64,000 bases of DNA from Psychrobacter sp. TAE2020 (GCF_018919485.1 NZ_JAHLMU010000001.1:286655-350654); one strand, 5' to 3'. Numbered from the stretch's first letter, positions 43,635 through 64,000 are shown. The notes: generated by a model not told the origin, from the letters alone. Numbers and translations: made by a program.

Positions 43635-45440
43635 ATGGATAAGCAGTATATTACCGAACGCTTTATTAACACCTGCATCCGTGAAGATGTCTATGGACTG
43701 CTATCAGATAATGCAGTTATCCAAACAGAATTTGATATTCCTAATCTGCCAGAGACGTTAAAACAGCAAACGTTGTGGTTAGAGATAACCTCACCCAAAC
43801 AAACCAATTGGTTGCCGATTATAGCCAGTGACTATATGCAATATTGGCAACTTGCCAGCCCAGTGTGGCTTCAAAAAAACTCAGACGGTTACATTATCAA
43901 GCATGACTATGAGGATTTTGTCGCAATTCTCAAACAATTGTCAGGTGCCTCTGAGACCGCACTTGACAGCTATCTGCTTGAGCTTGATTGTGCCACCGAA
44001 CACCGAGCGTTAGCACGCCAAGGGTTTGAGTCTCAGCATAGCCAGCTTGTGCGCAATATTAATGAATACCCAAGTTGGTCTGAGCGCTTGCTATACGCCG
44101 ATCAAGTCGCCTCGTATTTAGATCACCCTTACTATCCGACTGCCCGCGCCAAGCTTGGTCTGGACGCAGCGGACATCGCAGCTTACAGTCCAGAATTTGC
44201 GCCAACCTTTAGTCTATATTGGGTTGCTATATCTAAAGCGCTAAGTACCGTCAGCGCCAAGCTGCCTAATATTTGGCCAAGTTTTGCAGATGTCGGTCTC
44301 AATCCTGACCTCCAACAGACGCACCATCTATTTCCCATACATCCGTTAACGCTGCCGCTGCTGCAACAACATGCTCTCAAGGATGATACTGGGCAACTTA
44401 TATTGGCACCCAAGTCTGCGCTAAGCGTACAACCGACCTTATCTGTGCGTACGGTAGTGTGCTGTGCTGACTCAAATATTCATATTAAAGTACCGCTCAT
44501 CGTCCGCACCTTAGGCAATAAAAACGTACGCTTAATTAAGTCCTCAACCATTTATGATGGTTACTGGTTTCAACGCACCTTACAGCTGATTGCAGAAAAG
44601 GATGTCGCGCTGCAAGGGTATTACGCGCATTGCGATGAAAGCCTAGGTGGTCATATGGGCGATGATAAAACCCTCGCCTTTATCGTGAGGCGCTATGATG
44701 ATATCAATTTAACGGATAAAACCCCTGTACCTGTGGCAGCATTTGGCAGTGTCATGCCTGATGATCGTCCTTTTATTAGTCACTTAATCGATATCTTTTA
44801 TGATGGTGATAGTCGGCGTTGGTTAAAAGAGTACATTGCCCTGTTATGCCATGTCCATTTGATCCTATGGATCAAATATGGCATTGCGTTAGAAGCCAAT
44901 CAGCAAAATGCCGTGATTGTATTTGATCAACATAGCTGCACGATGACCTTGCTTATGAAAGACAATGATTCTGCGCGCCTTTATCCGCCACGATTTAACG
45001 CTGCCATGACACAAATTGGTTTAAGCAATGTGATAGATATCAACGCTATTAATAACATCAAAGATATTAAAGACCAACGTATCGTTGTTGAGGATGAGTT
45101 GGCGTTGGCGCAGATGTTTTTGACCATTACGCTCCAGCTAGACATTGTTGCGATTATTGAGATGATGAGCAACCATGACATCATCAACCGTAATGACGCA
45201 TATCAAATCTTAACAGACGGTATTGATGCGACATTACATAGTCTTTCTGTACGAGGTTATGATACCCACCTTGCACAGAAAGTCTTATTAGAAAACCAGC
45301 ATTGGTATATTAAATACTTGTTGTGTGCTGGCAGTCTGTTATCAAAAGAGGAGTCTGGCGCGACAGATATTAATAAGTTTTATGGCAAATCAGCGCCCAA
45401 TACCTTAAAACTTATGCAGCAACTCAATCAGGATTCATAA
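43635..45440 (+). CDS. pvsB: NRPS-independent siderophore synthetase, IucA/IucC family (PvsB-like)
   Basis: 601 residues. IucA/IucC-type motifs are DHPYYPTARAKLGL near 152-165 (the HP-x-x-x-K/R ATP motif) then YSPEFAPTF, FPIHPLTLPLL near 237, LSVRTVVCCADSNIHIKVPL near 270 and the FhuF-like C-terminal EANQQNAVIVFDQ. The enzyme activates a carboxylate (citrate type) as an adenylate and joins it to an amine or alcohol. It lies 68 bases after pvsA-like, and its TAA overlaps the ATG of the exporter (TAATG), so these are coupled. Confidence 0.85.
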   Translation: MDKQYITERFINTCIREDVYGLLSDNAVIQTEFDIPNLPETLKQQTLWLEITSPKQTNWLPIIASDYMQYWQLASPVWLQKNSDGYIIKHDYEDFVAILKQLSGASETALDSYLLELDCATEHRALARQGFESQHSQLVRNINEYPSWSERLLYADQVASYLDHPYYPTARAKLGLDAADIAAYSPEFAPTFSLYWVAISKALSTVSAKLPNIWPSFADVGLNPDLQQTHHLFPIHPLTLPLLQQHALKDDTGQLILAPKSALSVQPTLSVRTVVCCADSNIHIKVPLIVRTLGNKNVRLIKSSTIYDGYWFQRTLQLIAEKDVALQGYYAHCDESLGGHMGDDKTLAFIVRRYDDINLTDKTPVPVAAFGSVMPDDRPFISHLIDIFYDGDSRRWLKEYIALLCHVHLILWIKYGIALEANQQNAVIVFDQHSCTMTLLMKDNDSARLYPPRFNAAMTQIGLSNVIDINAINNIKDIKDQRIVVEDELALAQMFLTITLQLDIVAIIEMMSNHDIINRNDAYQILTDGIDATLHSLSVRGYDTHLAQKVLLENQHWYIKYLLCAGSLLSKEESGATDINKFYGKSAPNTLKLMQQLNQDS

Positions 45441-46711
45441 TGAGCTATCGAATTATGGTGGCAATCGTCCTATGTTGTCACTACATGTCCGCGTTTTCTG
45501 CCTTAGGGATGCCTTTGTTTTTGCCAATCATGCTCCAAGAGCTGGATGCACCATTGCAATCAGGCTGGGTTGGTTTGCTGTTTATACTACCGGCCCTAAT
45601 GACTGCCGTCGCTGCTAGGTATTGGGGACATTTCGCCGATACGTATGGTCGTAAGACATCCCTGTTACGGGCGGAGCTAGGGTTGGCAGTAGGGTTCTTA
45701 ATATGCGGATTTTCTCAGTCTTTATGGCAGCTCATCATAGGGCTAAGTATTCAAGGGCTATTTGGTGGGACGATGGCAGCCTCAAACGCGTATTTAGCAA
45801 CTAGTATTACTGATAAGAACGCCTTAAAACAGGTTTTGAATTTCACTCAATTCTCAGCACGGCTTGCCCTCATTACCGCCCCGATTGGGCTGGGATTTTT
45901 GGTATACCATTACGAGGTGTTAAGTTTATATCGGGTGTTAGCCATACTGCCTTTATTGGCATTATTACTCAGCTGTTGGCTCAAAAAAGACGTCGTCTCA
46001 GCAGACACTATCGTCACAGAATCAAATACTATTGCGTTGCCAAAAGCATCTACAGAAACTAAAAGCAGTGACAAAGCCAAAAGCGATAAGAAAGAGGCGC
46101 ACCAATCAGCGCAAGGCCTAACGGGCGCTACTTTTTTTGCCAATCCTTATCTATTTATATCGGTGCTACAGTTTTTCTTAGCATTCTGTATGGTAGCGAC
46201 TTTCCCATACTTTTTGCCATTTGCCAAAACTTTTGGGCTTAGCACCTCTCAAATAGGACAGTTATATGCTATGCCTCATGTGATGTATCTGATCTGCCAG
46301 CTGCTATATGGACGCATCAGCCATCGCCTGCCAGCAGCATCACTCAACCTTGGTTTTGCGGTATTGGCGGGTGCAGTCTTGCTGCATTTGACGGATTATC
46401 TTCCCTTGATTTGGTTAGCCAGGATGCTATTTGGCGTAGGCATGTTTATGTGCTACCAAAGCCTGCATACAAAAATGGCGGATACCAATCAGTCTAAGCA
46501 TAGCGGCAAAATATTCTCCAGATACGATGCGCTATCAAAATGGGGCGGCGTACTAGCAGGATTGGTGGTCACCTTATTCGTACCGATATTTGGTCTGCTC
46601 TCTCCATTTATTCTCTCAGCAGTGATGGCAGTTATCGCGATAATAACCATCAAAATGTATCAACGCCACGCGACAGACGCTAAAAACCACACTTACTCTA
46701 AAAACATCTAA
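45440..46711 (+). CDS. pvsC: MFS siderophore exporter (PvsC-like)
   Basis: 423 residues with 12 predicted membrane segments and the MFS loop 2-3 motif GHFADTYGRKTSLL at about 66-79. A charged central loop (about 190-230, rich in Lys/Ser/Asp) separates the two halves. By position inside the siderophore operon it is expected to export the finished siderophore. The start overlaps the pvsB-like stop, and the next gene follows after 15 bases. Confidence 0.85.
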   Translation: MSYRIMVAIVLCCHYMSAFSALGMPLFLPIMLQELDAPLQSGWVGLLFILPALMTAVAARYWGHFADTYGRKTSLLRAELGLAVGFLICGFSQSLWQLIIGLSIQGLFGGTMAASNAYLATSITDKNALKQVLNFTQFSARLALITAPIGLGFLVYHYEVLSLYRVLAILPLLALLLSCWLKKDVVSADTIVTESNTIALPKASTETKSSDKAKSDKKEAHQSAQGLTGATFFANPYLFISVLQFFLAFCMVATFPYFLPFAKTFGLSTSQIGQLYAMPHVMYLICQLLYGRISHRLPAASLNLGFAVLAGAVLLHLTDYLPLIWLARMLFGVGMFMCYQSLHTKMADTNQSKHSGKIFSRYDALSKWGGVLAGLVVTLFVPIFGLLSPFILSAVMAVIAIITIKMYQRHATDAKNHTYSKNI

Positions 46712-46726
46712 AAAAAGACATCACTT

Positions 46727-48784
46727 ATGAAACCAGACAATTCACTATCAAATAACTCGATACCAAGTTGCTTAATGCCTAGTAAATCAGTAGCAAATAA
46801 TCCAGTGCCAAGCCTGTTTTCGCAATACTATCAGTATAAGTCTGAGCAGCATGCACTGATGAATATCATCAATTGTTATCTTCGTGAGTTTGCCATCCCC
46901 AATCAAGACCTGCGCATTGATGAGTCTTCTGACGATTTGCCACTGTGCTTACGTGATAACCGCGTCTGCCCGAGCGAGCGACTACTGACGATTCGATTTC
47001 CTTTGGCTAACGATGTCTCTTCTTCTGCAAAAATTGTATTGCCAGCGACATATTTTAGTCGCTTGGGGAAATGCCAACCGAGCGGAGCACCTTGGCTAAA
47101 AGCAGACAATCAGTCGTGGGGGTGCCTCAACATTCATCAATTGATAGATTATCTACACAGCTATATTGCTACGCGTTATCAAATTGACCTCAACCAAGAG
47201 CTAAAGCATCAGATTGATAATAGTATCAGCGTGACTACCGCTTTTTTGCAGACTTCTGCCAAACACGTCACTAGTTACCATCACGATGTACAGGAAGATA
47301 AATCTACCGTTAATGGCTATATAGATAGTGAACAGGCATTACTTTGGGGTCATGCGTATCACCCATCGCCGAAAAGCCGGCAAGGGGTCGATATGACATC
47401 TTTATTGGCGCACTCGCCCGAAACTCAAAGTCAGTTCGCCTTATTTTGGTTTAAAGTTGATTCCTCCCTCGTCAGCTATATTGGCAAAGACACCAAAACC
47501 GTACTGCACAATATCGCTCGCACGTTACTTGCTGATTCTGGCGACTTACTAGAGTCTGTTCATTCAGACACTGATAGTTTCAGTACTGATAGCGACACCG
47601 ATTGGGTTTACTACCCTTGTCATCCTTGGGAAGCTGATGGCATCTTGGCAAATCCGACCATTAAGCGGGCAATCGCATCAGGATATATGATACCACTTGG
47701 TCTGACTGGTAAGGCGGTGTCTCCAACCTCATCGGTGCGCACCTTATATCATGACCAGCTGTCACATTTCATAAAATGCTCTATTCATGTTCGTCTGACC
47801 AATTGCATCCGCAAAAACGCTTGGTATGAGCTACACAGCGCCGTGTATCTAAATGATATTTTAGAAAAAATTGATTATAGTAAGCGCTTGACCGCGCCAG
47901 CTTTTAAACTGATGTTAGAGCCGGGTGCCGCAACCCTTGATATGACCACCAAGTTCCCAGATGATGATGCCAAATCAACTCAGTTTATTACTGAAGCCTT
48001 TGGCATGTTGTTTCGAGAGTCTTTTACTACTGATGACATTAAATACCTTACGCCGCAAGTTGCTGCCGCCTTATTTACGGAAGATAGGTTTGGAGACAGC
48101 GTCATCGAGCGCCAGCTACAACAACATTGTATCCACACTGGTCAAAGTAATCATGATAAACCAGCTTATGACACTCTAGCCTGTTTATGGTTCAATCGTT
48201 ATGCCAATACTTTAATTGACGGCACGTTTGATTACTTCTTCAATCATGGCGTTGTGTTCGAGCCGCATTTACAAAACACAGTAATTGGCTTTCATCAAGG
48301 TCTGCCTACATGCGTTTGGATTCGAGATCTTGAAGGCACCAAATTGGTTGATACGATGTGGGCACTTGATAAGGCGACCGGTTTATCTGAGCGTTGCAAA
48401 CAGTCCATCCGCTACTCTAAAGTGGCAGGATGGTCACGTATTGCTTATTGCATTTTTGTTAACAATCTTAGTGAGGCCATCTTTTATTTATGCCGAGGCG
48501 CGCAATCAGCGGAGACTCTAGAGGGGCTACTTTGGCAGCATGTCAAAGATATATTAATGAATTGGCAGCTGGTATATGGCACTCAACCTGAAATTCAGGC
48601 GTTATTAGCGGGTGGCAGCTTGCCAAGTAAGACCAATTATAAAACTCGATTATTCATGCTTGCAGATAAACATTCCGACTACGTTATACTTCCTTGCCCA
48701 TGGCAGCCCTCTGCGCTCAATGATAATAACAGCCATAACTCTAATAAAAAAACTCAGCTGAATCAAACTCAAAGGTATGCCTAA
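46727..48784 (+). CDS. pvsD: NRPS-independent siderophore synthetase, IucA/IucC family (PvsD-like)
   Basis: 685 residues. The ATP-binding motif is GHAYHPSPKSRQGV near 206-219, YYPCHPWEADGIL is near 298, and SPTSSVRTLYHDQLSHFIKCSI near 330 and VVFEPHLQNTVIGF near 512 complete a full IucA/IucC fold with FhuF-like C-terminus. In the vibrioferrin pathway the PvsD enzyme esterifies citrate with L-serine, and the neighbouring decarboxylase then makes the ethanolamine unit. It overlaps the next gene by eight bases if the first ATG of that gene is used. Confidence 0.86.
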   Translation: MKPDNSLSNNSIPSCLMPSKSVANNPVPSLFSQYYQYKSEQHALMNIINCYLREFAIPNQDLRIDESSDDLPLCLRDNRVCPSERLLTIRFPLANDVSSSAKIVLPATYFSRLGKCQPSGAPWLKADNQSWGCLNIHQLIDYLHSYIATRYQIDLNQELKHQIDNSISVTTAFLQTSAKHVTSYHHDVQEDKSTVNGYIDSEQALLWGHAYHPSPKSRQGVDMTSLLAHSPETQSQFALFWFKVDSSLVSYIGKDTKTVLHNIARTLLADSGDLLESVHSDTDSFSTDSDTDWVYYPCHPWEADGILANPTIKRAIASGYMIPLGLTGKAVSPTSSVRTLYHDQLSHFIKCSIHVRLTNCIRKNAWYELHSAVYLNDILEKIDYSKRLTAPAFKLMLEPGAATLDMTTKFPDDDAKSTQFITEAFGMLFRESFTTDDIKYLTPQVAAALFTEDRFGDSVIERQLQQHCIHTGQSNHDKPAYDTLACLWFNRYANTLIDGTFDYFFNHGVVFEPHLQNTVIGFHQGLPTCVWIRDLEGTKLVDTMWALDKATGLSERCKQSIRYSKVAGWSRIAYCIFVNNLSEAIFYLCRGAQSAETLEGLLWQHVKDILMNWQLVYGTQPEIQALLAGGSLPSKTNYKTRLFMLADKHSDYVILPCPWQPSALNDNNSHNSNKKTQLNQTQRYA

Positions 48785-50063
48785 AATGACAATAAACGCG
48801 ATGACAGACGGCACAACAACATACTCAATCGAGACATCAGATAAACACCTACTTCCTCCAAAAATAATTGACTGTGTTCACAATTATGGTGCGCAGCCGT
48901 CACCGCTCTGTGCGTATATTTATGACTTGGAAGCTCTAGAAGAACGTATAACGTCTATGAAGCGCTGCTTGCCTGATAATACGCAGCTGTTTTATGCCAT
49001 CAAAGCCAACGCTGAGCCTGAGATATTATCAACATTGGCAGACCATGTGGATGGTTTTGAGGCAGCATCTGCAGGTGAGCTCAATTGGCTGCAGGCCCAC
49101 CAACCAAACCATCCTATTATTTTTGGTGGACCGGGGAAGCTTACCTCAGACTTGCAACAAGCTATACAACAGCAAATCGATACCATTCATGTAGAAAGTC
49201 TGGTTGAGCTAACTAGAATCCAAACCTTAAGTCAATCCTTGAAGCTTCCCGTCCGTATATTCTTAAGGATGAATATTGATATTGGTGATATCGGTAGCAG
49301 TAAGCTAGTGATGGGCGGCAAGCCTACACCCTTTGGATTGGATGAAACCCATCTCAAGCAGGCGTTAAGCATCATAGACTCAAGCCCTTTTATTGAGTTC
49401 TGTGGGTTTCATTTTCATTTAATGTCGCATCAATTATCAGTCGAGCGCCATCTGCTGTTAATGCAGCGCTATATAGATATGGTCAAGAAATGGCAGCACA
49501 ATTATCAGTCGTTGCCCTCATCACTGACCATCAATGTGGGCGGCGGCATCGGTATTCACTATGACCAGCATCCGCAGCATTTTGATTGGGAAGTATTCTG
49601 TCAACAGCTTGCGAGTACCTTAACATCAAATCCTCAGTTTACTTTAAGGTTTGAGATTGGACGTTTTATCACCGCGCTCTGTGGTTATTATGTCATGGAG
49701 GTATTGGATATTAAAAAAAATCTTGGCGAGACATTTGTGATTGGTCATGGCGGCACGCATCACTTTAGAACGCCCGCCGCGCAGCAGCACAATCATCCTT
49801 TTTTCATCGTGCCGCGCCCCGTTAGCAAAGCAATGGAAAACAAGTTGCAAGAAGATCTGATAGAGCAAGCCGCTATCACTAACACTAGGGCAACCATTGT
49901 CGGTCAGCTTTGTACTCCCAAAGACATACTGGCAAAAGACCAATGGATTAAAGCGTTGAATATCGGCGATTACCTAGCTTTTATATTAGCAGGCGCTTAT
50001 GCTTGGAATATCTCTCACCAAAATTTTCTAATGCATCAGCCACCCAAAATGATTTTTTTATAA
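48777..50063 (+). CDS. pvsE: PLP-dependent decarboxylase of siderophore synthesis (PvsE-like; group IV fold)
   Basis: 428 residues of the alanine-racemase-fold ornithine/diaminopimelate decarboxylase family. The PLP lysine is Lys76 in FYAIKANAEP, with GFHFHLMSH near 218, the phosphate-binding NVGGGIGI near 251, RFEIGRF near 285 and the second-subunit Cys in GQLCTPKD, then a terminal GAYAWN. As last gene of the operon it would decarboxylate the citryl-serine intermediate. An ATG three codons downstream (48786) has better spacing from AAAGG and may be the true start. It is not lysA, judging by the operon context. Confidence 0.86.
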   Translation: MPKMTINAMTDGTTTYSIETSDKHLLPPKIIDCVHNYGAQPSPLCAYIYDLEALEERITSMKRCLPDNTQLFYAIKANAEPEILSTLADHVDGFEAASAGELNWLQAHQPNHPIIFGGPGKLTSDLQQAIQQQIDTIHVESLVELTRIQTLSQSLKLPVRIFLRMNIDIGDIGSSKLVMGGKPTPFGLDETHLKQALSIIDSSPFIEFCGFHFHLMSHQLSVERHLLLMQRYIDMVKKWQHNYQSLPSSLTINVGGGIGIHYDQHPQHFDWEVFCQQLASTLTSNPQFTLRFEIGRFITALCGYYVMEVLDIKKNLGETFVIGHGGTHHFRTPAAQQHNHPFFIVPRPVSKAMENKLQEDLIEQAAITNTRATIVGQLCTPKDILAKDQWIKALNIGDYLAFILAGAYAWNISHQNFLMHQPPKMIFL

Positions 50064-50214
50064 AAGGGTAAGGCCAATTTAATCTATAAAGGAAAATGGG
50101 CGTCTTTGCTATGCGCAGTTAATAATTAGGAAAGAATAAAGCCGGTTTAAGTGGGACAGTCCGGCGGGTAAGCTTATGGCAAAAATAGAATCTCAAAGTC
50201 GTTGAATAAAAAAT
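50064..50214. other. Short spacer between siderophore operon and IS remnant
   Basis: About 150 bases. No terminator hairpin with T-run was found for the biosynthesis operon; nothing else recognised. Confidence 0.4.
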
Positions 50215-50640
50215 TATAAATATAAGAAAGCTAATGATGCGCATAAGACCCGTGAAAACCTATTAAACCGTAATTTTAGCCCATCTGCGCCTAAACAAGT
50301 ATAGACAGGTGATGTCACCCATATTCGCATCAAAGGCGGCTAGTGGTATCTAGCCATTTTTAGGTTTGTATGCCCGTCGAGCGATAGGCTTTGCCGTGTA
50401 AGACTCACTTGGTAGTATGCTGACCGCTGAAGACTCTTTAGGAGCTTTAAGACTAAGTAGATGTCAAAGGGTGGTTATGAGAATATCGCTGAGGCTAAAA
50501 GCGCCATGATCGATTATATCTAGGGATATTATCAAACCGTGAGACCACACCGTTTTAATGATTATTTGCCACAAGCAGAAAAAGAGAGACGTTACTTTAA
50601 CAAAAACCTCTTATCAACCGTCCTAAATTAGTTGGCCACT
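50215..50640 (+). mobile_element. Degenerate IS3-family transposase (orfB) remnant, copy 1
   Basis: Translation in shifting frames gives TGDVTHIRIKGG, a W-to-stop change, then LYARRAIGFAV and MLTA, the first part of an IS3-type DDE transposase. It then jumps to a C-terminal piece (SLGALRLSRCQR..., ISLRLKAP in another frame). The DNA aligns with the element at the right edge (63.46-64.0 kb) in the same orientation, but about 240 bases of the middle are missing. Several in-frame stops make it inactive. Confidence 0.82.
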
Positions 50641-50938
50641 ACAACTCTTGTATTACGTCGCTGCAAAATTAAGCGCTCCCATCCTAGTAGCACTCACTAT
50701 ATTTAAGACTGTCCATGATTTATAGAGGCTGAAATATCGGTTGATCTTAGGCTTTAAAGCGGGTTGCCTTATTTAGTTGTATGACCTAGACTCTACTAGC
50801 CATGACTTTTAGTAAAGTTATTACTATTAAGGATAGTTATATCAATAAAATTTAAAAATATTTGAATAATTAAGTAGTTAGATAAAAATCGCCCAGTATT
50901 ATTAAGGGTAATCATAATAAATTAAGGAAGAATAAAAA
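50641..50938. other. Upstream region of hydroxyacid dehydrogenase
   Basis: About 300 AT-rich bases after the IS remnant. It ends with an AAGGAAG ribosome site for the next gene; no gene seen. Confidence 0.45.
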
Positions 50939-51892
50939 ATGAAAATAGTAATCTTAGAATCTCTAGGAATTAGTGATGAAGAGTTAAATATAATAACAAA
51001 ACCTTTAACCGATAGTGGTCATGAGTTAGTTGTGTATGACGACGGAAAATTAGATGATGAGACTATCAAGGTAAGAATTAAAGATGCAGAGATTTTAGTA
51101 CTAGCTAATACGCCACTGAGTAGCGATGTGATCGATGCTGCCGAAAAACTAACTTATATTTCAATCGCTTTCACTGGTTATAATCATATCGATTTAGCAA
51201 AATGTAAAGAAAAAGGCATTAAAGTCTCAAATGCTGCAGGTTACAGCACAAACTCTGTAGCAGAGCTCACTTTTGGCCTAATAACCGCTCTATTACGCAA
51301 TATTATCCCTTTAGATGCAGTCACTAGAGAGGGCGGTACAAAGACTGGCTACAAACAGACTGATTTAAACGGTAAAACTTTGGGCATATTAGGGACTGGC
51401 GATATCGGTAGCGCAGTAGCTAAATTAGGTTTGGCTTACGGCTGCCAAGTCATTGCTTATAACAGAAGCGTAAATGCAGAACTGATAGAGAAAGGGGTAG
51501 AATACAAGGCATTAGATGATGTGTTAAAAACAAGTGATATTGTCACCCTTCATATCCCCCTAACCAATGACACCACGAGCTTGATTGATACAGACAAGCT
51601 GGCATTGATGAAAACCAGTTCATTGTTAATCAACACTGCTGTTGGGCCAATCGTTGATAATGATGCATTAGCAGCAGCACTGCACGCTGGCACAATCGCT
51701 GGTGCTGGCTTAGATAGAGTAGATATGGAGCCACCAGTTCCCACAGACTATCCTATCCTAAACGCTCCGAATACGGTTCTTGTCCCGCATATCGGCTATG
51801 CAACAGAGGAAGCTATGATCAGAAGAGCCAGAATTACCTTTAACAATATTAGCAAATGGGAAAAAGGCCAACAAGAAAACATAGTGCTCTAA
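50939..51892 (+). CDS. D-2-hydroxyacid dehydrogenase family protein
   Basis: 317 residues. NAD-binding motif GKTLGILGTGDIGSAVAKLG is near 143-162, preceded by SVAELTFGLI near 101-110. The catalytic Arg/Glu/His triad is suggested by INTAVGPIVD (the Arg of the usual NT-x-R-G is replaced by V-G-P), AGLDRVDMEPP and VPHIGYAT. The family reduces 2-keto acids to D-2-hydroxy acids, or the reverse. The GP-for-RG change affects the loop near the active-site arginine and deserves a check. It is followed by its own terminator. Its position before the oxamate-type genes suggests a role with a 2-oxo acid or glyoxylate, but this is inference. Confidence 0.85.
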   Translation: MKIVILESLGISDEELNIITKPLTDSGHELVVYDDGKLDDETIKVRIKDAEILVLANTPLSSDVIDAAEKLTYISIAFTGYNHIDLAKCKEKGIKVSNAAGYSTNSVAELTFGLITALLRNIIPLDAVTREGGTKTGYKQTDLNGKTLGILGTGDIGSAVAKLGLAYGCQVIAYNRSVNAELIEKGVEYKALDDVLKTSDIVTLHIPLTNDTTSLIDTDKLALMKTSSLLINTAVGPIVDNDALAAALHAGTIAGAGLDRVDMEPPVPTDYPILNAPNTVLVPHIGYATEEAMIRRARITFNNISKWEKGQQENIVL

Positions 51893-51900
51893 AACAGCTC

Positions 51901-51935
51901 AAAACAAACCTATCGTCACGGTAGGTTTGTTTTAT
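51901..51935 (+). terminator. Rho-independent terminator of the hydroxyacid dehydrogenase
   Basis: AAAACAAACCTA pairs perfectly with TAGGTTTGTTTT around a 9-base loop. Confidence 0.92.
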
Positions 51936-52353
51936 TGAGTATAATAAACAGAGGTTATAGGAAGGAAGTTTTCCACATAAAATAAGCGCATCATTCAATA
52001 ATAAATAACCCGCTGAGCGAGCCATAAAGCTATTAATGGACTACGCCGCCTATCCCGACATTACGCAATGTTAGCCAATACTATCAACTATAGTGCCATC
52101 ACTGTAAATGCGCATACCACTATCCATCATCACTTTGCTTTTATCTAAACCTTTAATATCATTAGCAATAAATTTATCTGCAATCCCCTTAGCTATAACT
52201 CTAGTTTCCGTTTCTATAAACTCGTAGTATAGGCTTTTTTATAACGGGTATTAAGGGTATGCACGCCTACTTGATGATCTTTTCACACTGCTATATGCTC
52301 CTAAGTTTTAAGCTATAGTCCTATGATAACCATAATTAAAAAAGGATATAAAG
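51936..52353. other. Intergenic region before fdrA-like gene with a possible decayed ORF on the minus strand
   Basis: About 420 bases. On the minus strand, 52238 to 52071 gives an open stretch of about 55 codons (EFIETETRVIAKGIADKF, later MDSGMRIYSDG) ending in TAA, with no good start. It may be the C-terminal scrap of a lost gene. I do not recognise it. The promoter of the fdrA-like gene should lie in the last 100 bases. Confidence 0.35.
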
Positions 52354-53889
52354 ATGCCCGTACAAGCAAAAATACTAGCAGGAGTCTACTCCGACTCAAT
52401 GACTCTAATGACCCTCTCAACTCAGGTTAACAAGCTACCGGGTGTGCAAAAAGCCATGATTGGCATGGGTACTGCGATGAATAAAGCCGTTATCAGCGAT
52501 GTTGGCCTGATGACTCCTGAAGTTGAAGCAGCATCAACTGGTGACATGATTTACACTGTAGAATGCGCCACTAAAGAGATATGCGCTGAAGTATTAATAA
52601 AGATAGATGAGTTACGCACGGCTACCATATCTGGTCAAGCACAACAAACCTCTTACCGCTCGCTTGATAAAGCTGTCAAAGACACTGACTCTAGCTTAGT
52701 TATTATCTCAGTACCTGGTGAATACGCTGCTGCCGAGGCTCAAAAGGCGTTAGATAAAGATAAAAACGTTATGATATTCAGTGACAATATCACTGTTGAA
52801 GATGAGTTAGCACTTAAACAGTTTGCCCATAAAAAAGGGTTGCTGGTCATGGGACCAGACTGTGGCACGGCTATTATCAATAATGTTGGCTTGTGTTTTG
52901 CAAACGCGGTTAACAGTGGTCTAATCGGTGTGGTCGCAGCTTCTGGCACAGGAGCTCAAGAACTCAGCGTACAAGTTGATACTTTAGGCGGTGGTATCAG
53001 CCAACTCATCGGGGTTGGTGGACGTGATTTATCGGAAGATATTGGTGGCATCATGATGATTGATGGGCTAAATATGCTAGCTCAGGATCATCAAACTAAA
53101 GTCATCGTCCTAGTCTCAAAACCACCAGCAGCGTCAATTGCTAATAAAGTACTGGAAGTCGCTAAAAATATTGATAAGCCTGTAGTGATTTGCTTTATTG
53201 GTAATGACGAAACAGAAAATGACACTAATCTGCACTTCGCCAATAACACCTTAGAAGCTGCAAAAAAAGCGGTTCAAGCAGCTGGTATAGCTGTTGATAA
53301 TGATAGTAAAAGCTACGACTTCGACTATGAAAACATCAGATCATCCTTTAGCAAAAGTCAAAAATTTATTCGCGGTGTATTCTGTGGTGGCACTATCTGC
53401 GATGAAGTGTTTTATGTATTAAAAAATTCGACTGAGCATCTTACTGGTAAAGCTGTCAGTAATGTTGCAAAAAAAGCCAAGGAACAATTAGCTATTGGGG
53501 CAACTAGCTACGATAACGCACTACTTGATATGGGTTCTGATGAATTCACTAGTGGCAGACCCCATCCAATGATTGATCCAACTGCTCGTAATGCTCGACT
53601 TATCAAAGAAGCACGAGATTCCCAAACAGCCGTTTTACTACTCGACTTCGTATTGGGATATGGCGCAAGCGATGACCCAGTTGGCGCTGCGGCTGACTCA
53701 ATCAAGCAAGCCTATTCACAGGCGAAAAAAGATCAGCGCTCGCTACAAATCATCGCCTACGTACTCGGCACCAACCGAGACCCACAAGATAAGCGAAGCC
53801 AGATTAAGCAACTAACAGATTTAGGGGTTCATGTGGTCGATTCGGTGGTCGATATGGGTAATATTGCCTTAAAAATGCTACCTAGATAA
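52354..53889 (+). CDS. fdrA: FdrA/AllF-like subunit of oxamate carbamoyltransferase
   Basis: 511 residues (E. coli FdrA is about 555). Acyl-CoA-synthetase/succinyl-CoA-ligase-like motifs are VMGPDCGTAIINN near 163-175, GVVAASGTGAQELS near 190-203 and IGVGGRDLSEDIGG near 218-231. The C-terminal ligase-like half has LLDFVLGYGASDDP. In E. coli this gene, with ylbE and ylbF, was shown to encode oxamic transcarbamylase (AllFGH), which converts carbamoyl-oxamate (oxalurate) plus phosphate to oxamate and carbamoyl phosphate. It is followed by DUF1116 and DUF2877 genes in the same order. Ribosome site AAAGGA. Confidence 0.9.
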   Translation: MPVQAKILAGVYSDSMTLMTLSTQVNKLPGVQKAMIGMGTAMNKAVISDVGLMTPEVEAASTGDMIYTVECATKEICAEVLIKIDELRTATISGQAQQTSYRSLDKAVKDTDSSLVIISVPGEYAAAEAQKALDKDKNVMIFSDNITVEDELALKQFAHKKGLLVMGPDCGTAIINNVGLCFANAVNSGLIGVVAASGTGAQELSVQVDTLGGGISQLIGVGGRDLSEDIGGIMMIDGLNMLAQDHQTKVIVLVSKPPAASIANKVLEVAKNIDKPVVICFIGNDETENDTNLHFANNTLEAAKKAVQAAGIAVDNDSKSYDFDYENIRSSFSKSQKFIRGVFCGGTICDEVFYVLKNSTEHLTGKAVSNVAKKAKEQLAIGATSYDNALLDMGSDEFTSGRPHPMIDPTARNARLIKEARDSQTAVLLLDFVLGYGASDDPVGAAADSIKQAYSQAKKDQRSLQIIAYVLGTNRDPQDKRSQIKQLTDLGVHVVDSVVDMGNIALKMLPR

Positions 53890-53941
53890 TAATTAAAACC
53901 TAATAATGTAGTAACCAATACCAAAGAAAAGGAAGAAAAAC

Positions 53942-55363
53942 ATGTCATTATTTGGTAAAAAAGCTAGAGATATGGCGATTATAAACGTTGGTCTTATCTC
54001 ATTCGCCAGCGATATTGAGAAACAAGGGGCAAGCGCTCTTCAAGTTAATTGGACACCGCCGCGTAAGTATTCTCAGGAAGTGCAAGATGCGCTAAAAAAA
54101 CTTCAGCAGCCAGACATAGCCGCTAAAATAAAGGCTGCTAATCAACAAGTAGTTGAAAAAATCACTCAGTCACATCAAGTACTGACAGGTTACGAGCAAG
54201 CCATTAATGTGGTGCCCGGCATGACCAAGACTATGGTTCTACACGCAGGACCTCCCATTGAATGGGAAGCTATGTGCGGAGCCATGCGCGGTGCTGTTAC
54301 TGGTGCCATCGTCTTTGAAGGCCTAGCAAAAACTGTTGAAGAGGCTGAAGAAGTTGCCGCTTCAGGGGGTGTCCAGTTCTCGCCCTGCCACGAGCATGAC
54401 TGTGTTGGCTCAATGGCTGGTGTAACTTCAGCATCCATGTACATGCATGTGGTTAACAACAAGACTTATGGTAATGTCTCTTATACTAACTTATCTGAAC
54501 AACTTGCAAAAATTCTGCGCATGGGCGCTAATGATCAATCAGTTATTGACCGACTAAACTGGATGCGTGATGTCCACGGTCCAATACTATCAGCCGCTAT
54601 GAAACTCGCTGGTGAAATTGATCTGCGCCTTCTACTATCTCAAGCAATCCATATGGGCGACGAAGATCACAACCGTAACTTTGCTGGTTCATTGCTACTC
54701 ATGCAAGAACTTGCCCCTTACATTATTCAGACTGATTTTACAGATGAGCAGAAAAAGGAGGTGTTTGAGTTTGTAAAATCAAGCGACTATTTCTCCGGTC
54801 CAACTTGGATGGCCGTGTGTAAAAACGCCATGGACGCCGCTCATGGTGTAGAGAACAGCACTATCGTCACTACTATGTGCCGCAACGGTACTGAGTTTGG
54901 TATTCGCGTCTCGCATATGGAAGGATTCCAGTGGATTACTGGACCCGCTCAGCAAGTCATGGGTCCCATGTTTGCCGGCTACAAGCCAGAAGACTCAGGT
55001 CTTGATATTGGTGATAGCTCAATTACTGAAACTTTTGGTATTGGTGGGTTCGCCATGGCGGCTGCTCCGGCAATTATTCCTTTGGTCGGTGGTACTGTCG
55101 AAGACGCCCTAAATTACTCTAAAGATATGATGGAGATTACCACTGGGACTAACCCTAATATTACGATTCCCATTCTCAACTTTCGTGGTCTTGCAACAGG
55201 TATTGATGTCATCAAAATCATTGAAACTGGCATATCGCCTATTATTAACACCGCCATCGCTCATAAAGACGCTGGTATTGGTATGATTGGCGCTGGTCTG
55301 GTTAACCCACCGTTTGAAGTGTTTGAAAAAGCAATCGTTAAGTTGGCAGCTTCAATTAACTAA
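53942..55363 (+). CDS. allG: DUF1116 protein, AllG/YlbE-like subunit of oxamate carbamoyltransferase
   Basis: 473 residues. Family features are NVGLISFASDIEKQGA near 15-30, HAGPPIEWEAMCGAMRGA near 102-119, FSPCHEHDCVGSMAGVTSASM near 150-170, and a His/Asp-rich MGDEDHNRN near 232. It belongs to the YlbE/AllG family, which acts with FdrA and DUF2877. It lies 52 bases behind fdrA-like and 69 bases before the DUF2877 gene. No break or missing piece seen; family length is normal. Confidence 0.88.
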   Translation: MSLFGKKARDMAIINVGLISFASDIEKQGASALQVNWTPPRKYSQEVQDALKKLQQPDIAAKIKAANQQVVEKITQSHQVLTGYEQAINVVPGMTKTMVLHAGPPIEWEAMCGAMRGAVTGAIVFEGLAKTVEEAEEVAASGGVQFSPCHEHDCVGSMAGVTSASMYMHVVNNKTYGNVSYTNLSEQLAKILRMGANDQSVIDRLNWMRDVHGPILSAAMKLAGEIDLRLLLSQAIHMGDEDHNRNFAGSLLLMQELAPYIIQTDFTDEQKKEVFEFVKSSDYFSGPTWMAVCKNAMDAAHGVENSTIVTTMCRNGTEFGIRVSHMEGFQWITGPAQQVMGPMFAGYKPEDSGLDIGDSSITETFGIGGFAMAAAPAIIPLVGGTVEDALNYSKDMMEITTGTNPNITIPILNFRGLATGIDVIKIIETGISPIINTAIAHKDAGIGMIGAGLVNPPFEVFEKAIVKLAASIN

Positions 55364-55432
55364 GTAATTAATCGGTGTAACTGGCTTTGACTTCATTAAT
55401 AGTAAACTCACCAACAGGCCTGTTTATATAAA

Positions 55433-56305
55433 ATGCGATTTATTGCCATCACAGCCGATAGTGCTTGGCGCACAGCGCTTCAGACCTCAAAAACGGCTAC
55501 GGTTAACAGTGTTTTTCATGGCGCTGTTAATTTGCAAATTGCTAGTGGTGAGCTGCTAAGCATTTTTCCAGCCAATAGCCCAAACGCACCAAGTGGTTTG
55601 ATAGCTTCACATAGCCCTGGTCAAAAATTAGGCGCTGTTGGTGAAACCGTTCACCTTTCCCCAACCGCTATTACTTTTAACAGCGTCATTCTGGTACTAG
55701 ATAGCTGCCAATTTGTGACAAACCGTTTAGATCACTGTCAATTGCCCTTACCAAGGCAACATTATCTAGAACAATTTGCACAACACCTACAAGCTCAGGC
55801 GAAAAAAGGCAGCTTTTATGGTGCTATGCCCGGCGACGTGTTTAATAGTGCTCAAGTCGCTAGACTTGAAAGAGGACGTGCGCAACTAAAGCAAGCTTGG
55901 GTCCAATCAGCATCTAAAGATATTGCTTACGCAACTAAGCAATTGATTGGCCTTGGCATTGGGCTAACTCCTTCAGGTGATGACTATCTACTAGGGCTGC
56001 TGTTGGTTCTAAATCATTCAGTAGCTTGTAATAGTATCAATTTAGCCACTATAAAGCAGGCGGTTGTAGACAATATCAAAACAACAACTGAGGTTAGTCA
56101 AGCCTGTTTATATGCTGGTCTTGACTGCCGCTACAGCGCACCACTGCGCGAGCTATTTATTGCCATTACTAGTCAAAATAATGCGTTTGAGCAGGCATTA
56201 CAAACGGTACTGGCGCACGGTGCTACCTCAGGTCAAGATACTTGCGTTGGTATGCTTGATGCTTGGATATTACTACAGAACATTGCTGCAAAGGACGATG
56301 GCTAG
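55433..56305 (+). CDS. allH: DUF2877 protein, AllH/YlbF-like subunit of oxamate carbamoyltransferase
   Basis: 290 residues. A characteristic LIGLGIGLTPSGDDYLLGLLL motif is near 178-198, and VSQACLYAGLDCRYSAP and VLAHGATSGQDTCVGMLDAW are near the C-terminus; these define DUF2877. It is the third subunit in the order FdrA-DUF1116-DUF2877. The ribosome site is weak. After the stop, about 250 bases lead to a hairpin between convergent genes. Confidence 0.87.
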   Translation: MRFIAITADSAWRTALQTSKTATVNSVFHGAVNLQIASGELLSIFPANSPNAPSGLIASHSPGQKLGAVGETVHLSPTAITFNSVILVLDSCQFVTNRLDHCQLPLPRQHYLEQFAQHLQAQAKKGSFYGAMPGDVFNSAQVARLERGRAQLKQAWVQSASKDIAYATKQLIGLGIGLTPSGDDYLLGLLLVLNHSVACNSINLATIKQAVVDNIKTTTEVSQACLYAGLDCRYSAPLRELFIAITSQNNAFEQALQTVLAHGATSGQDTCVGMLDAWILLQNIAAKDDG

Positions 56306-56603
56306 AAGTGGCTATATCAATAAAAAAATGATACCGACGTAAATAAGTGGTAAGGAAAATATCTTAAGGACCATAAACTAGTCTACATGATCGGCACGGC
56401 AGCTCACTTTGCAACAGGTATGGGTTTTATCAGGATTTTTGATGATCGTTATTAGTGCCCTATTCGACTATTCAGGATCGGTTCTGCATAGCCAATGATT
56501 GGAGGCGCTAATATAAGATAGGCGCAGTGTTGTATTACCTGCTTGGCAAAATGAGTACTAAAAAATAAGTACTCATCATAAAAAAATAGCAGAAATTAGA
56601 AAG
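56306..56603. other. Convergent intergenic region, possible gene scrap
   Basis: About 300 bases between allH-like and carbamate kinase. A short open piece near 56386-56445 reads MIGTAAHFATGMGFI, which could be a fragment of a lost membrane protein. It ends with the hairpin at 56551-56576. Confidence 0.35.
56551..56576. terminator. Hairpin between convergent genes, weak terminator
   Basis: ATGAGTACT pairs perfectly with AGTACTCAT, 8-base loop. Read on the minus strand a short TTTT follows; no T-run on the plus side. It may end carbamate kinase transcription. Confidence 0.5.
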
Positions 56604-57545
56604 CTAAGGAGTAATTATTGTTCCAGCGTGTTCGGCTATAATAGCTTCAATTTCATTTAGCTCTCCAATCATGGCATTATTACCTGAATGCTTTACGAAC
56701 TGCTGGGCGGCCTTAACTTTTGGTAGCATACTGCCAGCTCCAAACTGACCATCGTCTATATAGCGTGTGATGTCATCACTGCTAACCCTGTTTAAGGCAG
56801 TCTCTTTAGGGGTACCAAATCCCAGCATAACAGTCGACACTGTCGTCAATATAATAAATTGGTCAGCCCCTAAAAGTTCAGCTATCAAAGCTGCTGAAGA
56901 ATCTTTATCAATCACCGCTTCTATACCTTGCAAGCTATTATCAGCTTGCTTGATGACTGGTATTCCACCACCCCCTGCGACAATGGGTATTATTCCTGCG
57001 TTTATTAAAGCTCTGATTGCGTTGGTCTCAACTATTGTAACCGGTGCTGGTGAAGGCACAACACGTCGCCAGCCACGGCCAGAATCTTCATGGAAAGTAT
57101 AACCTTGTCCATCAGCAGCATTTATTGCTTCATCTTTAGAGTTATAAAATGGACCTATTGGCTTATCTGGACTAAGAAACTTTGGATCATCTTTATTAAC
57201 AACCATCTGGGTAGTTATAGAAACAGCCTGTTTATTAAGATTATTTTTTTGAAACTCATTATTTAATGCTTGCTGCAACCAATAACCAATTGAACCTTGC
57301 GTCATCGCGACACAAGTATCTAGTGGCAAGGCAGGTATCTCTTTAGAGTCAATGGCGTGCTGTGCAAGTAGTATATTACCAACCTGCGGTCCATTACCGT
57401 GGACTATGATCAGCTGATGACCTTGGCTAACGATTGCAGCTAGCTTTACTGCAGTCTCGCAAGCTACTGCCTTTTGAGCAGTGGCTGATGCCTCGCCTTT
57501 GCGCTGCAATGCATTTCCACCTAATGCTACGACAATTATTGCCAT
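56604..57545 (-). CDS. Carbamate kinase (ArcC/AllK-like)
   Basis: About 313 residues. The amino-acid-kinase core is intact: IIVVALGGNALQRKGEA near 3-19, VHGNGPQVGNILLAQ near 49-63, IVAGGGGIPVI near 195-205 and GSMLPKVKAAQQF near 270-282. It transfers phosphate from carbamoyl phosphate to ADP, making ATP plus NH3 and CO2. The frame can begin at TTG 57548, but the next codon is ATG (57545), with GGAGG five bases upstream, so I use the ATG. It faces the oxamate-type genes, whose product carbamoyl phosphate it would consume; in E. coli a paralogue (YbcF/AllK) does this. Confidence 0.92.
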   Translation of the reverse strand: MAIIVVALGGNALQRKGEASATAQKAVACETAVKLAAIVSQGHQLIIVHGNGPQVGNILLAQHAIDSKEIPALPLDTCVAMTQGSIGYWLQQALNNEFQKNNLNKQAVSITTQMVVNKDDPKFLSPDKPIGPFYNSKDEAINAADGQGYTFHEDSGRGWRRVVPSPAPVTIVETNAIRALINAGIIPIVAGGGGIPVIKQADNSLQGIEAVIDKDSSAALIAELLGADQFIILTTVSTVMLGFGTPKETALNRVSSDDITRYIDDGQFGAGSMLPKVKAAQQFVKHSGNNAMIGELNEIEAIIAEHAGTIITP

Positions 57546-58025
57546 CAATGCCTCCGTTTCTTTTTAATATTTAGGGTTTTTATACTTTACTTCCGGTCTG
57601 TGTTCAAAATTATCTATGATTATTTTCAGTACTAAAAACTTTATATAAAAGCTACTTTACAGGCGAGCTTGTGATGTCTTATATTTTCATTGCCTTGTTA
57701 GTACTGCGATACAAATAGTGAGTTTGTGAATACAGGTCAGTATTGAAATCATCCTAATACTTACTCCATCGCTTTAATAATGCTAAAGTTTGAAATAAAC
57801 AAAGTTCAAGCGTGGAGGTAATAAACCGCCCAAACTTAACCATAGCCACTCATAATTTTCATGGAGTCTATAGCTCTCAATTCGACTAGTCAACCCAGTA
57901 TTTATTTAAATAAACTGTTGATATATTGGTGGGTATAAAGAACTCATTAATAACTAGCACTCTTTAACATTAGTTGGTTAAATAATACGTTCGAGCCCTA
58001 CTACAAGCCGCATATTAGCAATAGC

Positions 58026-63165: not shown

Positions 63166-64000
63166 TCAGTCAGCTGGTAGAGCAAGACAAACGGATCAGT
63201 AAAAGTCTTCTGTATAAGCTATTTGGCGTGATGAAAAGCAGTTACTACTATAGCATACAGCCCAAGTCCATCAGTCTTGAAACCGTCAAGCACAAGGCAT
63301 TAATTCGTAAATATTTAACGACTCAAAGTAATCGGCTGGCGCTCGCACTATTATCGCTATTCTGTGGAATGAGCACAGTATTATGCCAACGCGTTACTTA
63401 GCAAGCAATCTTATGAAAAGTATAAAACTCAGAAGCTGTCAGCCTAAGACGCACAAGTATAAGCATGCTAATCAAGAACATAGAACCCATGCCAATATTT
63501 TAGACCGCAACTTTAGCCCAATTGCGCGCAATTAAGTCTGGACGGGCGATGTCACCTATATTCGTATCAAAGGCGGCTGGTGGTTTTAGATTTTTATGCC
63601 AGACGTATAGTGGGCTTTGCCGTCTCAGATTCCCCTGATAGTATACTTACCCGTAAAGCACTACAGATGGCGTATTACACGAGACTCAAACCCAGCAATG
63701 TACTATTTCACTCAGATCAGGGGGCGCATTACACCAGCAAGACATTCGCTGAATCCGTGGCGAGTTGTGACGGTATGATACCAAGCATGAGTCGTCGTGG
63801 TAATCCACTACCGGCATAGCTCTCCGTCTTGCACTCGGACAAGGCAGTGCTTTGCTAATCCTCGCTCATAGGACAACGCACTAACTGAGCGCTTCTTTAG
63901 AAGCTTTAAGACTGAATGGATGCCAAAGGGTGGTTACGAAGATATCGCTGAAGCCAAACAAGCTATTTGTGATTATATATGGGGCTATTATCAAACCGTG
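63162..64000 (+). mobile_element. IS3-family OrfB transposase, decayed, copy 2, runs off right edge
   Basis: OrfB begins LISQLVEQDKRISKSLLYKLFGV and continues in shifting frames. WTGDVTYIRIKGGWW carries the first catalytic Asp. The 63580-63819 frame has LDFYARRIVGFAVSD and VLFHSDQGAHYTSKTF with the second catalytic Asp. NALTERFFRSFKTEWMPKGG near 63877-63935 carries the catalytic Glu. Stops, frameshifts and an insertion of about 61 bases in the GN-x-x-DNA motif (63805-63871) make it inactive. It aligns with the 50.2-50.6 kb remnant. Confidence 0.88.
63805..63871 (+). repeat. Short insertion inside the transposase remnant
   Basis: IS3 OrfB normally reads GN-x-x-DNA, with six bases between AAT and GAC. 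Here 67 bases lie between them, an excess of 61 bases not divisible by three. The insert can form a small hairpin (GCACT/AGTGC). Origin unknown. Confidence 0.5.

Follow-up and report, generated by a model that had tools for sequence, protein, structure and literature searches.

The window analysed here, a stretch of 64,000 nucleotides from a Psychrobacter genome of 3.29 Mb (G000 below), carries a YahEFG/YahI-type module, a real and ordinary to moderately interesting case of a gene set that is known but uncharacterised, and the family labels of its genes (oxamate carbamoyltransferase) misname it. The genes for FdrA, DUF1116, DUF2877 and carbamate kinase reported in an earlier note on this DNA are indeed present, all of them over curated Pfam or NCBIfam cut-offs (Table 1). 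On balance, the module probably encodes a Yah-type catabolic carbamoyltransferase that works with a carbamate kinase on oxalurate, the likeliest substrate, or on a close ureido acid, supplied by a source other than allantoin and AllD. By homology to E. coli AllFGH, the AllF, AllG and AllH homologues would form one enzyme, converting a ureido acid (R-NH-CO-NH2) and phosphate to R-NH2 and carbamoyl phosphate, and the kinase would phosphorylate ADP with it, yielding ATP along with ammonia and CO2. The substrate could be taken up directly, or could come from an unlinked YahJ-type amidohydrolase opening a cyclic ureide, e.g. parabanate. The module appears to have entered the genus horizontally; it is under purifying selection and is partly degraded in this lineage, the losses concerning a membrane partner and an HbpS-like gene here, and the enzyme genes themselves in a sister strain.

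Table 1. Features of the module and its surroundings, numbered from the first nucleotide of the window.
Feature	Position	Strand	Family match or remark
IS3-type transposase remnant (left; type presumed from sequence reading)	50180..50650	+	resembles second remnant at 63401-64000
D-2-hydroxyacid dehydrogenase homologue, 317 aa	50939..51892	+	2-Hacid_dh over Pfam/NCBIfam cut-off
HbpS/GlcG-like (PF03928) remnant, stop and frameshift	52074..52294	-	
allF/yahF homologue, FdrA family, 511 aa	52354..53889	+	NF004760 over cut-off
allG/yahG homologue, DUF1116, 473 aa	53942..55363	+	PF06545 over cut-off
allH/yahE homologue, DUF2877, 290 aa	55433..56305	+	PF11392 over cut-off
DUF1097 membrane-protein gene remnant (YahC family)	56330..56510, limits approximate	+	
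carbamate kinase, allK/yahI homologue, 314 aa, TTG start	56604..57548	-	TIGR00746 over cut-off

Subfamily and neighbourhood of the module

The three subunits (FdrA family, DUF1116 and DUF2877) are homologous to those of AllFGH, and both AllG and AllF point to the Yah subfamily. The AllG protein of the window shares 68% of its residues with YahG and 45% with AllG (YlbE) of E. coli; for its AllF protein the figures are 47% with YahF and 38% with FdrA. In an AllG tree of 95 rows, a quick tree whose long branches outside the Yah clade are unsure, the window falls within a Yah clade of 83 rows (SH-aLRT 100), together with YahG of enterobacteria, Neobacillus, Vibrio and others. E. coli AllG pairs in a separate clade with a Photobacterium AllG (L177) that is linked to AllC, AllD and AllE. 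The window AllG does not group with these allD-linked proteins, and orthology of the module to allFGH is rejected on the strength of the tree. Among the positions that are invariant in Yah AllG proteins, 138 have the same residue in both allD-linked AllGs and 56 have a different one, fixed in the two, a comparison made with only two such sequences (E. coli and Photobacterium); when E. coli AllG was used as query within the class, too few genomes matched to sample its clade. In the tree the window sits closest to actinobacteria and Neisseriaceae rather than to enterobacteria, a placement that points to horizontal acquisition. The neighbourhoods of the closest actinobacterial relatives have no enzyme in common.

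The nearest described arrangement is yahEFG-yahI of E. coli, which comes with yahC, yahD and yahJ. Besides the shared AllG clade and the nearer YahF, the likeness extends to a kinase gene nearby, to a DUF1097 neighbour in sister genomes and to a YahJ homologue in the genome. However, the gene order is F-G-H here and E (the H homologue)-F-G in E. coli, the kinase is here on the opposite strand, convergent with allFGH, there is no ankyrin gene among the listed adjoining ORFs, and YahJ is unlinked. The DUF1097 (YahC) neighbour is common, though not universal, in E. coli and its kin. In the window we found a remnant of it between allH and the kinase, missed in the earlier note (DNA similarity at 56394-56509, with a broken frame, at ~56.3-56.6 kb), and in the sister loci L009, L010 and L011 the gene sits intact at this place. 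For a model of a DUF1097 protein (L036 12435-12926), the best matches are the membrane parts of ALMT organic-anion channels from plants, at Z ~8 over 146-157 aligned residues and an rmsd of 4-5 Å; with a Foldseek E of 0.08, and with helical bundles scoring high by chance, this weak likeness is a hint only.

Two other systems can be compared. E. coli allFGHK, the oxamic transcarbamylase with its carbamate kinase, has a homologous three-subunit set and kinase, but it belongs to a different clade at the identities given above, and allE, allC and allD are not linked to the module here. An orphan module without allantoin genes is already reported in nitrifiers, where allFGHK of ammonia oxidisers without upstream purine genes has been proposed to serve for oxalurate (PMC12625717); our module is likewise an orphan without allantoin genes, whereas theirs often lie beside biuH, codB and purE.

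We also sampled 80 Yah loci whose genomes belong to different species. Homologues of AllA, AllB, AllD and AllE were found within 10 kb of none of the 80, so that missing allantoin genes are normal for the Yah clade; an AllC-like amidase (~33%) occurs near Yah loci in seven Firmicutes. The recurring neighbours are the YahJ amidohydrolase (~50), a 516-aa permease (47) and a nucleoside deaminase (17), and ankyrin proteins and LysR- or PucR-like regulators are also repeated. The model of the permease (pLDDT 73) resembles UraA/SLC26 folds, which supports the fold class only, and a search run without a positive control found no homologue of it in the genus Psychrobacter. Enterobacteria and bacilli commonly carry the Yah gene set, as do ColV-type plasmids of E. 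coli, and we found no published function for it in the literature.

Candidate substrates and the YahJ amidohydrolase

What could the substrate be? E. coli AllFGH is an oxamic transcarbamylase that works with the carbamate kinase AllK, turning oxalurate into oxamate and carbamoyl phosphate, and Kim & Kim observed that single allF, allG or allH mutants give zero oxamate (PMC11326118). Since E. coli K-12 MG1655 carries yahEFG and all these mutants nevertheless make none, yahEFG is either unexpressed or not doing the oxamate reaction in E. coli. On the other side, PDB 3clq, an E. faecalis protein (PMC10647573), falls in the Yah clade of our tree. OXTCase activity is known from extracts of S. faecalis ATCC 11700, and a Yah-clade AllG in a species with measured OXTCase favours oxalurate, the match being at species level only. 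To go by the title of a reference in PMC6022934, parabanic acid acts as inducer of the OXTCase in a streptococcus. Parabanate, which singlet oxygen forms from urate, is converted to oxalurate by hydrolysis at neutral pH (PMC5703782). The earlier proposal that the module uses another carbamoylated acid or imported oxalurate, yielding carbamoyl phosphate and ATP, gains support from the Yah clade, from the loci devoid of AllA, AllB, AllD and AllE and from the 56 AllG differences. Against our main reading count these same differences, the lack of YahJ in Psychrobacter sp. GP33, which has the module, and the yah permease search in the genus.

The YahJ-subfamily amidohydrolase of G000 (NF005312 over cut-off) is encoded ~175 kb from the module. 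Adjacency of YahJ is common but not universal in the clade: like the window, Vibrio and several further Yah loci have none close by. Five of 105 genomes have YahJ, and four of these five are among the five module carriers (G101, which has remnants, being counted; Fisher 5e-6, uncorrected for kinship). On a MaeB tree the genomes with both YahJ and the module fall into two clades apart from each other, so that the effective number of co-occurrence events is small. YahJ, unlinked but co-occurring, is a better candidate partner than the dehydrogenase proposed in the earlier note.

Related clades of AllFGH bear on the chemistry too. One adjoins a ring-opening amidohydrolase and an NCS2 permease, another a cysteine hydrolase and CodB-type genes (cf. 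PMC12928451); this varied company of ring-opening or ureide enzymes supports the view that the family splits ureido acids in general. The same enzyme class might then act on something other than oxalurate, i.e., on a ureido acid from a pyrimidine-, creatinine- or hydantoin-like ring opened by YahJ and/or the nucleoside deaminase. The variety of ring enzymes beside the other clades, the 56 fixed differences in AllG and the resemblance of YahJ to AtzC and cytosine deaminase all lend weight to such a substrate, but the Yah-clade AllG of E. faecalis, a species with measured OXTCase, speaks against it, and we regard it as possible though unlikely. A more speculative possibility is that the Yah clade represents a distinct catabolic carbamoyltransferase route, in which YahJ would open parabanate or a similar cyclic ureide, as an oxidised purine ring, to a ureido acid, YahEFG would produce carbamoyl phosphate from this acid and YahI ATP, amounting to a salvage of oxidised urate or guanine independent of allantoin. 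The Yah genes form a separate clade, never allD-linked in our sample, and YahJ accompanies them even at unlinked positions, which defines a class of substrates that can be tested; if borne out, carbamoyl phosphate would here serve as an energy source by a route other than those of arginine, agmatine and allantoin.

Other arrangements were seen during this survey. In another Psychrobacter (G073, L012 6886-14301), an AllFGHK set of a different type (AllG at 45%) is accompanied by a permease resembling CodB and by a hydrolase of the isochorismatase family. An Aeromonas plasmid (L179 1567-9210) carries a ring-opening amidohydrolase, an NCS2 symporter and fdrA/DUF1116/DUF2877/arcC, which suggests that rings of the barbiturate or cyanurate type are used there, with carbamoyl phosphate as the end product. 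Plasmids of several enterobacteria have similar DUF1116 matches.

Mobility, selection and decay

The module occupies different chromosomal places in its carriers. When G000 is compared with GP33, synonymous differences reach a proportion of 0.32-0.55 in F, G, H and K and of 0.49 in the dehydrogenase gene, compared with 0.69 in MaeB and 0.58 in PuuE, values consistent with an exchange of the module within the genus. The earlier note had placed it between two IS3 remnants and proposed that it may have moved as a unit. Two remnants do exist (~50.2-50.65 and 63.4-64.0 kb), of what we take, from reading the sequence, to be the IS3 type; the fragment, once patched, had no match in Pfam. The right one lies ~6 kb beyond the kinase, so the module is not closely bracketed, and an IS3-bounded transposon is rejected. 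Movement as a unit is plausible from the varied contexts and from a synonymous divergence below that of MaeB, but the remnants are no evidence for it.

Is the module a decaying, non-functional relic? The DUF1097 gene and the HbpS-like gene, the latter a 136-aa ORF in the sister loci L009 and L011, are both broken in the window. In the sister strain G101 (L013 7475-10649) allF is deleted and allG and allH are fragments, with the kinase and dehydrogenase ORFs still open; at one deletion junction ACGCC is shared by both ends. In the window, however, F, G, H and K are open, the near-invariant residues are kept and dN/dS is low (0.03-0.25, pairwise values that average over long branches), which makes a relic improbable.

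The dehydrogenase and the unlinked purine pathway

About 2.5 Mb from the module, G000 encodes a PuuE allantoinase, a bifunctional allantoicase/ureidoglycine aminohydrolase, UraH and UraD, all over NCBIfam cut-offs, with AllA over its Pfam cut-off and a protein that we presume, from its sequence, to be PuuD-like. This cluster is a predicted pathway from urate to glyoxylate and urea, unlinked to the module. Ldh_2/AllD (PF02615) is absent from the 20 genomes searched, in a search backed by positive controls, AllC is likewise missing from G000, and the AllB search gave sub-threshold matches only, of a kind also seen in every control genome. The upstream allantoin steps, which the earlier note held to be absent, are so locally, where no AllB, AllC or AllD adjoins the module, and AllC and AllD are missing genome-wide, but an allantoinase and further steps are encoded at a distance. 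That note would have counted a complete allantoin pathway elsewhere under the same control as refuting its reading, and this holds in part: the genome does have such a pathway, but without AllD. Beside PuuE, an NCS1 (cytosine/purine/allantoin-type) permease gene is broken in G000 (L129 14108-15606) and intact in GP33 (L134 11142-12641).

The dehydrogenase had been proposed as the metabolic partner of the module. Co-occurrence is real, ten of the 105 genomes having an orthologue, the five carriers among them (Fisher 3e-6), but in two of four sister genomes, those of P. frigidicola and P. urativorans, the gene is unlinked from the module, it was never found in 77 non-Psychrobacter Yah loci, and in other genomes sits elsewhere among other genes. 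In the window the minus-strand HbpS/GlcG-like remnant intervenes before allF, and the dehydrogenase is thus not operonic. The protein has its domains and GxGxxG motif, and the His and Glu of the catalytic motif are kept, but the catalytic Arg of N-[TS]-x-R-G is replaced by Val235, an Arg that 1wwk, 5tx7, 3kb6 and 2cuk all have. Val or Ile stands there in 10/10 orthologues (window; L009, L013, L029-L035), a Psychrobacter subfamily under purifying selection. Given the low dN/dS the protein presumably does something, but the standard 2-hydroxyacid reaction is doubtful. Context and the lost Arg make it a poor partner, and the dehydrogenase is probably a neighbour rather than a functional part of the module.

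In one genome (G011, L034 9034-11508) the dehydrogenase adjoins a gene that we take to be AllE-like (ureidoglycine aminohydrolase), after its G000 homologue, away from the AllA of that genome. Such adjacency, the co-occurrence just described and the expectation that ureidoglycolate arises in G000, where the AllD family is absent, would fit a dehydrogenase that replaces AllD and makes oxalurate from ureidoglycolate for AllFGH as a branch of the purine pathway, but this is very improbable, with the catalytic Arg replaced in every orthologue, the gene unlinked in two carriers and, in four genomes, adjoining a diaminopimelate-dehydrogenase-like gene (named by sequence reading only), and two genomes (G012 and G017) having it without AllA.

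Upstream of the left transposase remnant, four ORFs (43635-50063) resemble an NIS siderophore cluster, with two IucA/IucC-like proteins, an MFS transporter and a PLP decarboxylase, the decarboxylase being the one checked against Pfam.
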